Shown: positions 1-4,056 of the stretch, in pieces
Layout of the letters: each line of letters opens with the position of its first letter
Numbering within the stretch: position 1 is the stretch's first letter
From: Bacteroidales bacterium
Lineage (GTDB): Bacteria > Bacteroidota > Bacteroidia > Bacteroidales > P3
Reading direction: 5' to 3'
DNA length: 36,775 nucleotides
NCBI GenBank assembly: GCA_017613375.1
Contig: JAGADZ010000070.1
Span: 1-36,775 of the forward strand
Program-made: the position numbers and the translations under genes
Notes under the pieces: model-generated
The model's database searches: none
Seen by the model: only the letters and a program-made list of their open reading frames with translations
What the model was told of the DNA's origin: nothing

Positions 1-39
1 GCCGCCCCTCCTCTTTGCTTCTCCTCTCGCGCTTCTTTC

Positions 40-139
40 GGGCGGCTGCGCCGCCCTACCCCTTCCGCTTCTCTTCCGCTTCTTCGGCGGCTGCGCCGCC
101 TCACTCTCCCCCACGCTCTCTTCGGCGGCTGGCGCCGCC
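40..139. repeat. Three near-identical GC-rich triloop hairpins
   Basis: Three copies of GGCGGCTGCGCCGCC or a close variant lie at 40-56, 86-100 and 124-139. Each is a 6-7 bp perfect inverted repeat with a 3- or 4-nt loop. They sit in a pyrimidine-rich, low-complexity stretch containing CTTCTTCGG-like words. A fragment of a fourth copy (gccgcccc) starts at base 1, so the array probably continues to the left. No credible gene covers this region. Confidence 0.85.
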
Positions 140-171
140 CCCCTCGCCATCCTCTCCTACACTATGAAATC

Positions 172-377
172 GCGTCTCTCCGAGACGCACATGGGGATAG
201 GTATTCCGCTATCCCCAGACTGCGAAAATCAGAGATTTTCTTGTCAGGGGTTATTGAGACTGAGCCTCTCCGAGGCTTGTTTTGTTACCGTCGCATGTCA
301 TAAACTTATCTGTTCTCCACTTGACTTCGCTTCCGCTCGTCACCCTAAAGGGCCGTTATCGAAAGCCACTGGCTTTC
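172..377. repeat. Array of five distinct short hairpins
   Basis: Five perfect inverted repeats follow one another: GCGTCTC/GAGACGC (172-188, loop TCC), GGGGATAG/CTATCCCC (193-216, 8-nt loop), GAAAATC/GATTTTC (224-240, loop AGA), AGCCTC/GAGGCT (263-277, loop TCC) and GAAAGCC/GGCTTTC (361-377, loop ACT). Stem sequences differ but the architecture is the same, four of them with triloops. A short open frame at 164-394 overlaps them but has no recognisable protein character, so I treat the stretch as non-coding. Bases 413-622 hold no gene; a further inverted repeat, GATTCGCAA/TTGCGAATC, is at 535-560. Confidence 0.8.
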
Positions 378-417
378 TTCATATTTTGCCATAATTGCTT
401 AAACGTTTAAGGATTAA
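353..417. repeat. Repeat element copy 1 (hairpin plus palindrome)
   Basis: A TATCGAAAG...CTTTCTTCA hairpin is followed by TTTTGCCA and the perfect 14-bp palindrome CTTAAACGTTTAAG (398-411), then GATTAAT. The same two-part arrangement recurs at 1719-1796 and the first part recurs at 3438-3475. This copy lies downstream of the minus-strand gene ending at 686. Confidence 0.75.
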
Positions 418-622
418 TATAATAAATTATTTTTATCACAACAAGTGAATTTACAAAGATACGAAATTAATATTATAACACTATAAAAAAAGCAATACTG
501 TTAAAAAACAGATTTCAACTGCCTGCTTTCTTTGGATTCGCAATTCGCGTATTGCGAATCATTTTCCTTGTCCGAATAGATACAACCTTTTAGTATGGTC
601 AATCTTTAACAACGAAAACAAA

Positions 623-651
623 AGGAACGGGGTCGAATCGACTCCGTTCCT
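623..651 (-). terminator. Stem-loop after the PH-like membrane protein gene
   Basis: A 13-bp stem, AGGAACGGGGTCG / CGACTCCGTTCCT, has loop AAT and one imperfect pair (631/643). It lies about 35 bases past the stop codon at 686. Read on the minus strand it is followed by a T-rich tract (TTTTGTTTTC), which fits an intrinsic terminator. Confidence 0.55.
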
Positions 652-685
652 ATATCTCCGCAACGTTTAAGAAATGTTTTGGGAA

Positions 686-1669
686 CTATTCAGACTTAAT
701 GTTGTTTATATTTTTGACGAAATTATATGCAAACCAACCATCAATACCTTTCAAACAGATTGGTTTTGCCATTATTCCGTCGCGTAGAACACCTATACCA
801 TCTTCGTACGGGATATAAGACACTATCTTGGAATACGGGATTCTCATTCCACGTTCTGCCGCATTGAAGTATAAGTTTTTATCAGTAATGTATGCAAGCC
901 CTGTTGCTATATATTCCATGTTTTGGGTAACGATGGTTTCTCCTCGGAACGACGACTTCCTATAATACAATCCTTTTAAAATACGTCCACTCCATCCACT
1001 TGCACTCCCTACTCTTGTGACTTTTTTGGTTAGTTCATATAGTTTTACGTTATCAAAAGCCCATAAGACATGTTCGTCCTTTTGTAAATTAATTAATACC
1101 GACTCCGGTGGAATCTTAACTCTGGTTGGCATTACTCCTTTTAACAAATCATTTATCACCAATAGTTTTACAAACTCTTGGTAAAAAGGTTGATTGTCTA
1201 GTTCTGTATGTTGAATTTTGAAGTGCTCAGTAAGATTGCAAAAACGATTCTCATCACTGTCCGAAACTTCGCCACGTTCTTGATAATTATCGACAATTCT
1301 CTCAAGGGCGCAAAATATTGCTTTCTTTTTGGATTCTTCGGATAATCCGCCTATTTTACCGTCAACAGCTTCATAACCTTCGTCCCTCTCAAAGGCACAA
1401 ATAATATCATCTATTAATTCGTTGCTTATGTCAAAATGGGGTTCTGTTGTGGATTCCATAGTTTTAGATTTCCGCCTTTTCTGCATTGCATGATGAATTT
1501 TTGAGATTAGTAATGCACAACCAAATGCAACTGCCAAAATAATCAGAGATCCAATTATTTTGGTGGAAACAGAACCCTCAACAGAAAGGCCAACAACAAC
1601 AAGAAGAACGCCAATGGAAATTATAACCCACCCAAAAACAGTTATTTCCCTTATGATATTATTTTTCAT
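686..1669 (-). CDS. Two-TM protein with C-terminal PH-like domain, function unknown
   Basis: The 327-residue product has two hydrophobic segments (about residues 11-30 and 37-57) followed by a basic stretch (KRRKSK), so most of it should be cytoplasmic. Residues 80-200 are charged and helical in character. The last 120 residues match, from memory, a widespread uncharacterised C-terminal domain of bacterial PH-like type: a KLYELTKK segment, a Y(I)TDKNLYF strand, IPYSKI and a final GIDGWFAYNFV helix. No catalytic motif is visible. The gene is AT-rich compared with the core genes further right, and a repeat copy lies on each side of it. A signalling or membrane-recognition role is only a guess; the function is unknown. 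Confidence 0.8.
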   Translation of the reverse strand: MKNNIIREITVFGWVIISIGVLLVVVGLSVEGSVSTKIIGSLIILAVAFGCALLISKIHHAMQKRRKSKTMESTTEPHFDISNELIDDIICAFERDEGYEAVDGKIGGLSEESKKKAIFCALERIVDNYQERGEVSDSDENRFCNLTEHFKIQHTELDNQPFYQEFVKLLVINDLLKGVMPTRVKIPPESVLINLQKDEHVLWAFDNVKLYELTKKVTRVGSASGWSGRILKGLYYRKSSFRGETIVTQNMEYIATGLAYITDKNLYFNAAERGMRIPYSKIVSYIPYEDGIGVLRDGIMAKPICLKGIDGWFAYNFVKNINNIKSE

Positions 1670-1718
1670 CGTATTATTGATTTCTCTTTATTTCAGAAAT
1701 TAGCTATTTAGTTCTCCA

Positions 1719-1796
1719 CTACGCTATCGAAAGAGCCACAGGTTCTTTCTTCACGTCTTGCCAAAATTTTATTTTACTTAAACGTTTAAGGATTAA
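1719..1796. repeat. Repeat element copy 2
   Basis: Bases 1719-1756 (CTACGCTATCGAAAGAGCC... to TTCACGT) are identical over 38 nt to 3438-3475. They contain the 9-bp hairpin GAAAGAGCC / GGTTCTTTC (1729-1749, loop ACA, one G-T pair). The palindrome CTTAAACGTTTAAG follows at 1777-1790, then GATTAAT, exactly as in copy 1. It lies between the CoiA-like gene (stop at 1810) and the start of the next minus-strand gene (1669). Confidence 0.85.
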
Positions 1797-1809
1797 TTAT
1801 TTTGGTGAA

Positions 1810-2880
1810 TTATTGTTGTTTTGGTATTCTTATTGAATATGGAACTCCTTTTAACCTATCGGACATCTTTTTTACATCGAACAATCGTATGCGGTAGTTA
1901 TGACATTGTTGTGCAGAAGAAAAACCTTTTTCTGTCATTGCAGGACACTTTCTATGAAAAATATCTTGATATATTTTATGATCACACAACCGACAATCCC
2001 GAACAATAAAGTTGTTCTTGGCCGCAAGTGCCAAAACGGCTTCTTTGTAATAATCATCCTTTCTTGAATTCAGTATATCTTCTGCAATATCAATTTCCAA
2101 TCCCTCATTATCATATTGATAGATGCTTGTCTTACAAGTTGATGTATTCAAATAATTTAGTTCACATCGTCCATTGTTTTCCTTAATGAATGAATATTTC
2201 GCAATTGAAGGATATGGAAGTCTATTAAAGTTGTAAAATCTTACAGGCGGCAAGTGTTTCATATCATAGGGATTTCCTAGATTTACACCAAACTTTAGAT
2301 TTAGTTTACCTGTTTCAACCAAATTGATTGACTTTTCTCTATCATCGTCGACTTTAATCTCTATTATTTTTATTTTCGATGCAATTTTTTCTTCATCGCA
2401 GGAATGTGTATAGTCAATTTCAATAAACAAAGGTTCTTTGTCAGGATGTTTGCTGTCAGATAATACTAAATCACCAATGAAACCATTATATTCAATTTCC
2501 TCTTTACAAATATCATATTCTTGTTTCAAATCAACCTCTTTTAAATAGCACTTATTGCATTTCAAGTCAGAAATCAGTTTTTTAATCGGACAGATATTCA
2601 CATCTTTACAGGGTGTACAAACATAGTATTTGATTATAAACGGTGAGTTACTGTAAAATATATCTTTCAATCTCCACTTCCATATTTTATGTATGTAGCT
2701 CTCTCCGTCACAATTTGAATTACACCTGTGCGCGAAATGCTTCCGTTTTTTCGAACCGTTTTTAATAATTAACGGCTCCCCACATTCAATACAACTATAA
2801 CATTGCCCTTTAATTGCATCATCGATGTGAGTAAATACATCGTGTTCATTCTTAGCATATTCGTACAGAAGTGCCTTCAT
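1810..2880 (-). CDS. CoiA-like protein with predicted PD-(D/E)xK nuclease domain
   Basis: This 356-residue protein has the CoiA layout. An N-terminal segment (MKALLYEYAK) leads into a CxxC zinc-finger-like motif (C27, C30, C33). Then come a Gly/Lys loop and KHFAH (residues 47-51), and E60-S-x-x-H64 in an amphipathic helix. A predicted restriction-endonuclease-like core follows: GDLVL (D137), LFIEID (E154) and IIEIKV (E174). A second cysteine cluster (CRLCDH and later C-H residues, about 296-330) may bind another metal. CoiA proteins are known from Firmicutes competence; relatives are scattered in mobile or accessory regions of other phyla, where their role is open. The start lies 6 bases after the lipoprotein stop, so the two are probably co-transcribed. 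The gene is AT-rich. A DNA-processing or defence role is an inference. Confidence 0.7.
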   Translation of the reverse strand: MKALLYEYAKNEHDVFTHIDDAIKGQCYSCIECGEPLIIKNGSKKRKHFAHRCNSNCDGESYIHKIWKWRLKDIFYSNSPFIIKYYVCTPCKDVNICPIKKLISDLKCNKCYLKEVDLKQEYDICKEEIEYNGFIGDLVLSDSKHPDKEPLFIEIDYTHSCDEEKIASKIKIIEIKVDDDREKSINLVETGKLNLKFGVNLGNPYDMKHLPPVRFYNFNRLPYPSIAKYSFIKENNGRCELNYLNTSTCKTSIYQYDNEGLEIDIAEDILNSRKDDYYKEAVLALAAKNNFIVRDCRLCDHKIYQDIFHRKCPAMTEKGFSSAQQCHNYRIRLFDVKKMSDRLKGVPYSIRIPKQQ

Positions 2881-2886
2881 CCCAAA

Positions 2887-3378
2887 TTATTTGTATATTT
2901 CTTCGAGGCAGCGATTAATGGCGATTCTAATATCATCTGCCTCTGTTTCTCCTTGACCTTCGCCTGTTACAACACAAATAACCTCACTAGTCTTTGCAGA
3001 AAGAATTTGCAATGTAACTTCGATTGTATAACCACCAAGTCCTGTACTACGTCTTCCTGTTTCCCCGTAGTTTATTATCATCGTTTTGTCTGCCAAGTCA
3101 CTTTTTATTTCCGGCAGACGAACCAATCCTCTTTTGATAAGATATCCTGAAATAATATCGGCAGGGTTTGTGCTCTTACTTCTGGACGAGCCATACACTC
3201 CATAGCCATTGCCATATACACCACCCGACGACCCTGTTTTTGTTTCTGTCGGTGTAATGTAAAAGTAAGTGTATTGATCCAAAGAACTATTTCTTGTCAC
3301 ACGAACAGGTTGCAGAGATACGCATGATGCAAATAATAAAGGCATCAATAATATAAAGATTGTTTTATGTGGTTTCAT
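2887..3378 (-). CDS. Small lipoprotein, function unknown
   Basis: The product is 163 residues with a clear lipoprotein signal: MKPHK, a hydrophobic core, and lipobox FASC with the lipidated cysteine at residue 19. A Gly/Tyr/Ser-rich low-complexity stretch (about 50-70, GVYGNGYGVYGSSRS) separates the N-terminus from a small domain with alternating hydrophobic strands (MIINYGETGR, YTIEVTLQILSA, VICVVTGEGQG). The terminal helix resembles periplasmic domains of the DUF4136 type only loosely, so I do not assign it. It is the first gene of a minus-strand pair with the CoiA-like gene 6 bases downstream. Pairing an outer-surface lipoprotein with a nuclease-like protein is curious. AT-rich like its neighbours. 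Confidence 0.75.
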   Translation of the reverse strand: MKPHKTIFILLMPLLFASCVSLQPVRVTRNSSLDQYTYFYITPTETKTGSSGGVYGNGYGVYGSSRSKSTNPADIISGYLIKRGLVRLPEIKSDLADKTMIINYGETGRRSTGLGGYTIEVTLQILSAKTSEVICVVTGEGQGETEADDIRIAINRCLEEIYK

Positions 3379-3437
3379 GTGATAAATATTATTTTAATAA
3401 ATTATTTCAGCAGTTTCCTATTTTGTTTTGTTATCCG

Positions 3438-3475
3438 CTACGCTATCGAAAGAGCCACAGGTTCTTTCTTCACGT
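3438..3475. repeat. Repeat element copy 3 (hairpin module only)
   Basis: The 38-nt module is identical to 1719-1756 and contains the hairpin GAAAGAGCC / GGTTCTTTC at 3448-3468. The CTTAAACGTTTAAG palindrome module is not present after it. The copy lies between the ORF6N reading frames and the start of the lipoprotein gene. Confidence 0.85.
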
Positions 3476-3490
3476 ATTCCAGTACGGTCA

Positions 3491-3654
3491 TTATTTGTTA
3501 TCTTTCTTTACTCGTTTTACGGTGTGTTTGATTTTGCCTATTATGAAGTTTATTTCAAGTGATGATTCTGTTTCGGAGGTCTCAAGGTCGGGCATCACGA
3601 TGTCGGTCAGCACCTCACCGAAGTGATGCATCTTTTGGGCTTGGATTTTTTTTT
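3491..3654 (-). other. Out-of-frame C-terminal part of the ORF6N protein
   Basis: The ORF6N frame runs into AAAAAAAAA on the coding strand (3646-3654) and then stops after 15 unconvincing residues. If one A were added, translation would continue as KKKIQAQK, then MHHFGEVLTDIVMPDLETSE and on to KIKHTVKRVKKDNK with a stop at 3491-3493. These 46 further residues look like the normal C-terminus of such proteins as I remember them. Either this copy is frameshifted, the assembly dropped one A, or RNA polymerase slippage on A9 restores the frame. Confidence 0.65.
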
Positions 3655-4056
3655 GGTTTCCTTGTGCAGTTCAACCAGTTCACGCTTCAATCCGTGCACC
3701 TTGGCAAAGGTCTCAATAATGGCGAATGCCACAGCCGTTGCACGCTCGCTTTTCAATACGGTAGCCAGCATATAAAGTCCCTTCTCGGTAAAGACTTTTG
3801 TGGTCGAACGACTCTTTACCGACACTTTTGTGGTCAAAATTTTTGACCGCAAACTCTGTAACTCACTCTTTGTAAGTTCAAACATATAGTCTTTAGGGAA
3901 CTTGTCAAGGTTGTTCCGCACCGCTTGATTGACACGTCGAGTCTCCACACCATACAAATCTGCCACATCAGCATCGGCAATCACCTGAAGCTTGCGTATA
4001 ACGGCAATCTTGTTTTCTACCTCGATATAAGGAATCAATGCATTCGTCTTACTCAT
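3607..4056 (-). CDS. ORF6N-domain protein, C-terminus frameshifted
   Basis: The 149-residue frame begins MSKTNALIPYIEVENKIAVI and contains the ORF6N signature: IRKLQVIADADVADLYGVET (about 19-38), NQAVRNNLDKFPKDYMFEL (about 42-60) and a FTEKGLYMLATVLKS helix (about 90-104). ORF6N domains are DNA-binding modules spread by phages and mobile elements and are very common in Bacteroidales accessory DNA. The final residues (SKPKRCITSVRC) are not family-like and follow an A9 run; the real C-terminus lies in another frame down to 3491. The start overlaps the preceding small frame by the 4 bases ATGA. The target DNA is unknown. Confidence 0.75.
   Translation of the reverse strand: MSKTNALIPYIEVENKIAVIRKLQVIADADVADLYGVETRRVNQAVRNNLDKFPKDYMFELTKSELQSLRSKILTTKVSVKSRSTTKVFTEKGLYMLATVLKSERATAVAFAIIETFAKVHGLKRELVELHKETKKKSKPKRCITSVRC

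Follow-up and report, generated by a model that had tools for sequence, protein, structure and literature searches.

The DNA analyzed here, a stretch of 36,775 nucleotides on contig JAGADZ010000070.1 of a Bacteroidales bacterium (the window, by which we mean the whole stretch), carries near its start three copies of a hairpin-forming repeat among accessory genes on the minus strand. An earlier note on this DNA had reported a 38-nt module present twice, a third, altered hairpin and a palindrome common to copies 1 and 2, and had proposed a cassette-like layout. Sequence comparison within the window confirmed the first three observations: positions 1719-1756 and 3438-3475 are identical over 38 nt, with 92% identity when extended to 53 nt, the hairpin is kept at 353-378 with stem bases that are changed yet still paired, and the palindrome CTTAAACGTTTAAG lies at 398-411 and 1777-1790. 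The palindrome lies outside the repeated element and is a piece of a copied 5′ leader of nifJ, the gene for pyruvate:ferredoxin oxidoreductase (PFOR). The reading that we favor, with a confidence a little short of even, is a cassette-like array whose joints were hit by a second, much smaller mobile element, a reading that combines spread of the element with leader-based stacking of genes. These two components, followed by the features around them, are placed as follows:

313-381, plus strand: element copy 1 (TTCTCC ... TTCTTCA), 69 nt, with a shorter hairpin 2 and a much longer hairpin-1 part
1712-1753, plus strand: element copy 2, 42 nt
3431-3472, plus strand: element copy 3, 42 nt
287-418, minus strand: nifJ leader copy 1, made of the palindrome, ATGGCAAAA, element copy 1 and then AAGTTTATGACATGCGACGGT
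1754-1797, minus strand: nifJ leader copy 2, degenerate, with TTG replacing ATG, abutting element copy 2
1-286, minus strand: module B, GC-rich and non-coding, reaching the contig end; also found after leader copies in other genomes (9 rows including the window)
686-1669, minus strand: PH-like open reading frame (ORF), 327 aa, labeled so in the earlier note; no Pfam or PADLOC match
1810-2880, minus strand: CoiA_N-domain protein, 356 aa; no PADLOC match
2887-3378, minus strand: lipoprotein, 163 aa; no Pfam match; also in the arrays of loci L026, L166, L246, L253, L267 and L279
3473-3491, minus strand: start fragment MTVLE of a WG-repeat-like gene, recognized by eye, with element copy 3 directly after it
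3607-4056, minus strand: ORF6N-domain gene, whose frame stops early compared with relatives

Read along the minus strand, the order is the ORF6N gene, the MTVLE fragment with element copy 3, the lipoprotein gene, the CoiA_N gene, leader copy 2 with element copy 2, the PH-like gene, leader copy 1 with element copy 1, and module B up to the contig end, such that both leader copies (418-287 and 1797-1754) are interrupted by the element. The copies do follow genes, as had been noted, but copies 2 and 3, each 3′ of one gene, also stand 42 and 52 nt 5′ of the next start codon (that of the PH-like gene at 1669 and that of the lipoprotein at 3378, respectively). The true repeat unit is longer than 38 nt, with a consensus of 39-47 nt that runs TTCTCC, hairpin 1, TATCGAAA, hairpin 2 and TTTCTTCA; copy 3 has one substitution in the first block, and the long hairpin-1 variant of copy 1 is also present in locus L262.

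The nifJ leader is composed of ATTAATCCTTAAACGTTTAAG, a short spacer and ATGGCAAAAGAAAAAAAGTTTATGACTTGTGACGGY. Using a 116-base query that covers the leader and the start of nifJ, we found matches in 69 of 120 genomes of the genus, 31 of them at two or more places, a few of these multiple matches being two pieces of one copy and some genomes matching in the coding part only. In the 45 loci that we read, from 44 genomes and with the window included, leader copies stand between same-strand accessory genes, upstream of nifJ where nifJ is present, while gene content and order vary from locus to locus, an integron-like arrangement of units in a single orientation. Conserved content between the joints, which would have spoken against cassettes, was thus not what we found, and the cassette idea is partly supported: the same-strand accessory genes, the repeated joint and the variable content and order hold, but the joint is the nifJ leader with its palindrome and not the hairpin. 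An enrichment of the palindrome is circular, as the loci in question had been picked for it, and was not used.

Among the proteins encoded in the array are those of ORF6N, BRO-N, KilA-N and RhuM type, restriction enzymes and methylases of type II, a Fic protein, AbiEi, AAA ATPases, HNH and CoiA_N proteins, and a helicase whose gene neighbor encodes a DprA-like protein. Five of 20 array proteins had no match in a Pfam scan, and 11 of 15, several of them picked as defence-gene-like, matched in a PADLOC scan, in which neither of the two window proteins tested (CoiA_N and PH-like) did so. The helicase, which has a phosphoribosyltransferase domain, and the DprA-like protein (PADLOC PsyrA/ShosA) form one unit in L270 and L274, from two genomes. 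Contigs stop shortly past a leader copy and a GC-rich module in L248, L249, L251, L275, L246 and L247, as does the window at position 1, which suggests repeat or mixed arrangements at the array site.

Among 64 leader copies in 57 loci searched, 31 lead an intact nifJ and 33 do not, and 33 of the 64 start within 40 nt past a stop codon, which in three cases is that of a doubtful GC-rich ORF. The continuations of type B (9 rows), C (6), D (3) and E (2) depart from nifJ within a few bases of GACGGY, and past this junction no sequence is conserved. Six times, in five genomes and after six different genes, a leader is followed by a BRO gene. We propose that accessory genes would stack beside nifJ in the nifJ direction with the leader (palindrome, start codon and about 12 codons) repeated at the joints, such that nifJ would retain an intact leader and the inserted genes would sit behind leader copies; units would then be gained, lost and reordered through leader-leader recombination, by RecA or by a site-specific enzyme in trans, a process that may be the motor of the array.

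An unlikely but serious rival is a local tandem duplication of the nifJ leader alone, perhaps kept for expression, with genes arriving by ordinary homologous recombination and no cassette mobility. Spacers identical among three leader copies within L165 and among three within L026 fit such a duplication, as do the variable breakpoints, whereas the spacers differ within L267, L274 and L277, and one and the same leader-BRO junction is found behind different genes in L265, L267 (twice) and L277. A rather improbable rival takes codon 12 of nifJ as an attachment site, with non-autonomous islands that bring a nifJ 5′ end with them and so restore the gene, and an integrase acting in trans. The departure of modules B, C, D and E near GACGGY favors it; against it stand the lack of conservation past the junction and the other breakpoints that occur. 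Moreover, a phmmer search of 46 loci, which did not extend to serine recombinases or attC sites, found at the array no integrase gene resembling the three tyrosine recombinases on contig 13 of the window's own genome. An enzyme away from the array is possible.

Two further observations concern nifJ and its pieces. Before nifJ, a promoter-like stretch is enclosed by a 26-base inverted repeat (TATATCCTAAAACGTTAACGCAATGG, at most 2 mismatches) whose arms are separated by about 123 nt, an arrangement like that of invertible promoters (G023:C24:74638-74812, G122:C14:132-306 and G025:C177:2982-3156); the repeat occurs in 7 of the 120 genomes, with both arms in 3. Short degraded fragments of groEL and dnaK adjoin accessory genes in L027 (5200-7200, with a Fic-like ORF recognized by eye), L049 (1500-3200) and L114 (4700-6300), and nifJ may therefore not be the sole housekeeping gene with copied pieces.

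The hairpin repeat has a distribution of its own. In the window's own genome (78 contigs, 78% complete), more copies lie on contigs 59 and 74, and the pattern CGCTATCGAAAN{8,18}TTTCTTCA, run on the 120 genus genomes, gave 270 matches in 58 of them (56 in the richest) and none in the other 62. The same pattern read backward had no match in any of the 120, which, together with the further copies in the own genome, places the repeat beyond chance. A 61-base window query matched 23 of 61 genomes, none of them among the 24 that lie outside the genus, consistent, in the sets searched, with confinement to one clade. A stricter pattern, by which the three window copies go undetected, was run on 393 Bacteroidales genomes, 391 of them outside the genus; its single match was the own genome and it had none among the 391, absences that hold for this pattern only. 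It also matched no IMG/VR contig, and on that ground we set phage carriage aside. A scan of GTDB genomes matched at least 113 contigs, and the 80 matches listed are Bacteroidales or Bacteroidetes metagenome-assembled genomes, many from rumen or gut, one being Candidatus Colimorpha pelethequi.

To describe the hairpins we used 35 distinct 41-nt copies and 500 shuffles. In hairpin 2, 95.8% of the stem cells are paired; 45 cells are changed on both sides and the covariation score reaches 0.295, for which the shuffles give 16.6 and 0.088, respectively. Three of five measures lie above all shuffles (0 of 500 reach them), pointing to compensatory changes of the kind seen in small dispersed repeats (SDR). 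Hairpin 1 is invariant in this set; outside it, four variants have longer complementary stems (GCCTTCGGC, GCACTTCGTGC, GCCCTTGCGGGC and GCCACTTTGTGGC) and some others pair poorly.

The hairpin is an independent dispersed element, with copies also in tandem, in intergenic stretches and within unrelated open frames. With 41 of 260 copies near locus ends set aside, 52 lie in sense and 25 in antisense within open frames (by a crude ORF caller, tandems included), in different reading frames and with different peptides in different genes; the better hosts are lipoprotein signal peptides and ORF6N, BRO and KilA-N-like genes. Apparent hosts among intact genes, namely dnaK (L049, L114), groEL (L027) and one nifJ (L036), proved to be degraded fragments and were discarded. 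Thirty-one neighbor pairs are in tandem at 60 nt or less, and neighbors 60-3000 nt apart share orientation in 37 cases and oppose each other in 4, counts in which overlapping loci may appear twice.

The footprint of insertion was measured in 11 of 43 rows that compare filled with apparently empty sites; many of the remaining rows are tandem copies or have flanks that diverge too far for the ends to be located. In 10 of the 11, 4-9 target bases are replaced by 45-54 bases (in the eleventh the automatic split is unreliable), and none shows a target duplication. Since the net change is divisible by three in 9 of the 11, non-coding ones among them, such a length proves nothing about selection in genes. 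Across 81 copies with unrelated flanks, reduced from 160, the TTCTCC side carries a T-run that weakens with distance (T in 72% at -3 and in 44% at -7), and the opposite end is fixed, with A in 98% followed by a pyrimidine in 98%. The repeat is a new, very small mobile element with SDR-like and REP-like traits and target-replacing insertion, and its mobility is well supported. The structure, the one fixed and one ragged end, and the target replacement are best fitted by a folded single-stranded intermediate: the non-coding element of 39-47 nt would be copied through RNA or single-stranded DNA, and the folded copy would be captured at gapped DNA, with loss of 4-9 target bases and a short, variable T-rich stretch on the TTCTCC side.

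As to enzymes, a repetitive extragenic palindromic (REP)-like element moved by a Y1 transposase of the RAYT (REP-associated tyrosine transposase) type would likewise be small, dispersed and hairpin-bearing. Y1 genes, for which the earlier note had proposed to look, are indeed present in 73 of the 120 genomes, and in L029 an element copy lies about 120 nt from the end of one of them (G005:C113:83331-83672), but they are not tied to the element: there is no association over the 120 genomes (p = 0.35), 4 of the 11 genomes with at least 5 copies have no Y1 hit, some of these assemblies being incomplete, and no element lies near the 30 Y1 loci fetched, nor in any of 63 fetched Y1, integrase and reverse-transcriptase loci. 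Y1 transposases insert seamlessly, unlike the replacement measured here, and we consider this route quite unlikely. We give equally little credence to a miniature inverted-repeat transposable element (MITE) moved by a DDE transposase, with duplications lost or overlooked: the element is dispersed and non-coding with copies in genes, and Y1 was the sole transposase family searched, yet the consensus of the 81 copies has no terminal inverted repeats and the 11 comparisons no target duplication. Ku was found in none of the 120 genomes (among 14 control genomes, Bacillus subtilis alone was positive), and canonical end joining was rejected. A conserved transcription terminator or mRNA-stability hairpin is hardly tenable, as the stem is followed by no T-run, copies lie inside open frames in both orientations, 62 of the 120 genomes have none, and an Rfam search gave two hits far under their cut-offs, on which a known RNA family was also rejected; the window hairpins do lie near gene ends, but the common terminator after core genes that the earlier note had set against its idea was not found as such, although the hairpin occurs well outside the array.

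The element and the array meet in the leader. Inspection by eye showed an interruption by the element or a remnant of it in 9 of the 33 leaders that do not lead nifJ and in 0 of the 31 that lead an intact one; in 7 of the 9 it stands right after ATGGCAAAA. A loose search had flagged 13 of the 33, of which four (L245, L264 8549, L281 and L282) proved on reading not to be elements. Among the 9 that were kept, L271 and L272 are degraded, and a leader with a remnant at L026 6057 was missed by that search. Purifying selection at nifJ with tolerance in spare leaders would explain this skew. The stems at the shared site differ among genomes, consistent with either one old insertion that kept evolving or repeated insertion. 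The element also interrupts a second dispersed repeat, CCGTGGG..CCCACGGCTAATATATGCCGCCCCTACGGGGC, at the same place repeatedly (L019, L028, L029, L155, L162 and L163; genome G005).

Several observations weigh against the combined reading of array and element. Leaders also break off at +4, +8, about +12, +30 and +54 to +133 from the ATG, and our analysis of continuations is blind to breakpoints before codon 12. In the window's own assembly the nifJ query found a weak match (31% identity) and no clear nifJ, so that the link of the window to nifJ comes from its leader copies and its relatives. For hairpin 2, two of the five covariation measures are no higher than in the shuffles, and 12 of the 35 copies leave pair 22-32 unpaired. 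Tandem copies show zero base loss and may be simple duplications; with GC skew as reference, copies favor neither strand (79 of 152). Mismatches of G-T type exceed those of A-C type (25 versus 9 cells over 201 copies, 11 versus 8 over 72 distinct stems), an imbalance that weakly favors one strand. Reverse transcriptase, present in 46 of the 120 genomes, shows no association with the element (p = 0.71) and is missing from 7 of the 11 high-copy genomes, and we rejected it, like Y1 transposase, as a resident driver. Finally, no enzyme or intermediate was seen for element spread or for leader recombination. We regard as doubtful a bolder version, in which a nucleic acid of about 42 nt with two hairpins would spread with no resident enzyme of its own, its folded RNA or single-stranded DNA copy being captured at gapped DNA at the cost of a few target bases, and in which defence genes of the same genus would be stacked integron-like behind nifJ leader copies by recombination independent of a cis integrase; both would differ from known mobile systems.

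Chromosomal integrons hold changing accessory genes at a fixed site in one orientation. The SDR of Nostoc-type cyanobacteria, which Elhai reportedly described in 2008, are said to be 21-27 nt long, with hairpins that carry compensatory changes, nested or tandem copies, restriction to one clade and a suggested RNA intermediate. Our element resembles them in its very small size, compensatory changes, single clade and tandem copies, and differs in its 39-47 nt, its two hairpins, its Bacteroidales host and its measured target replacement. REP and REPIN elements are small dispersed palindromes with a CGTC class that has no dedicated transposase (PMC3116915, PMC3733652); the element is likewise small, dispersed and palindromic, but its consensus has neither the conserved GTAG nor the CGTC end tag given there, and Y1 genes do not track it. 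Rickettsia palindromic elements, as outlined in PMC10969869, are about 150 bp long with a conserved peptide and also occur in open reading frames; ours shares the palindromic form and the copies in open frames but not that length or a conserved peptide. Defence hotspots, a subject of PMC10121019 and PMC10059834, hold changing defence and accessory genes at a fixed site. The array shares with hotspots, and with integrons, the fixed site, the changing defence and accessory genes and the single orientation, but its joints are nifJ leader copies and no integrase was found in its loci. In the open-licence literature we found no description of the element or of a nifJ defence hotspot. If the reading is true, the element would rank among the smallest mobile DNAs on record, and its replacement of target bases on insertion would match no standard transposase; the array would be a cassette-like defence and accessory locus that rests, in uncultured gut Bacteroidales, on the 5′ end of a gene of central metabolism. 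Both can be tested directly, as related genomes offer filled as well as empty sites.

Two minor points concern the window's own genes. The WG-repeat-like gene of the MTVLE fragment has, by eye, an intact-looking counterpart in L111. The ORF6N frame (3607-4056) ends about 45 residues short of related genes (e.g., that of L165, 194 aa), near an A-rich run, possibly through a frameshift.

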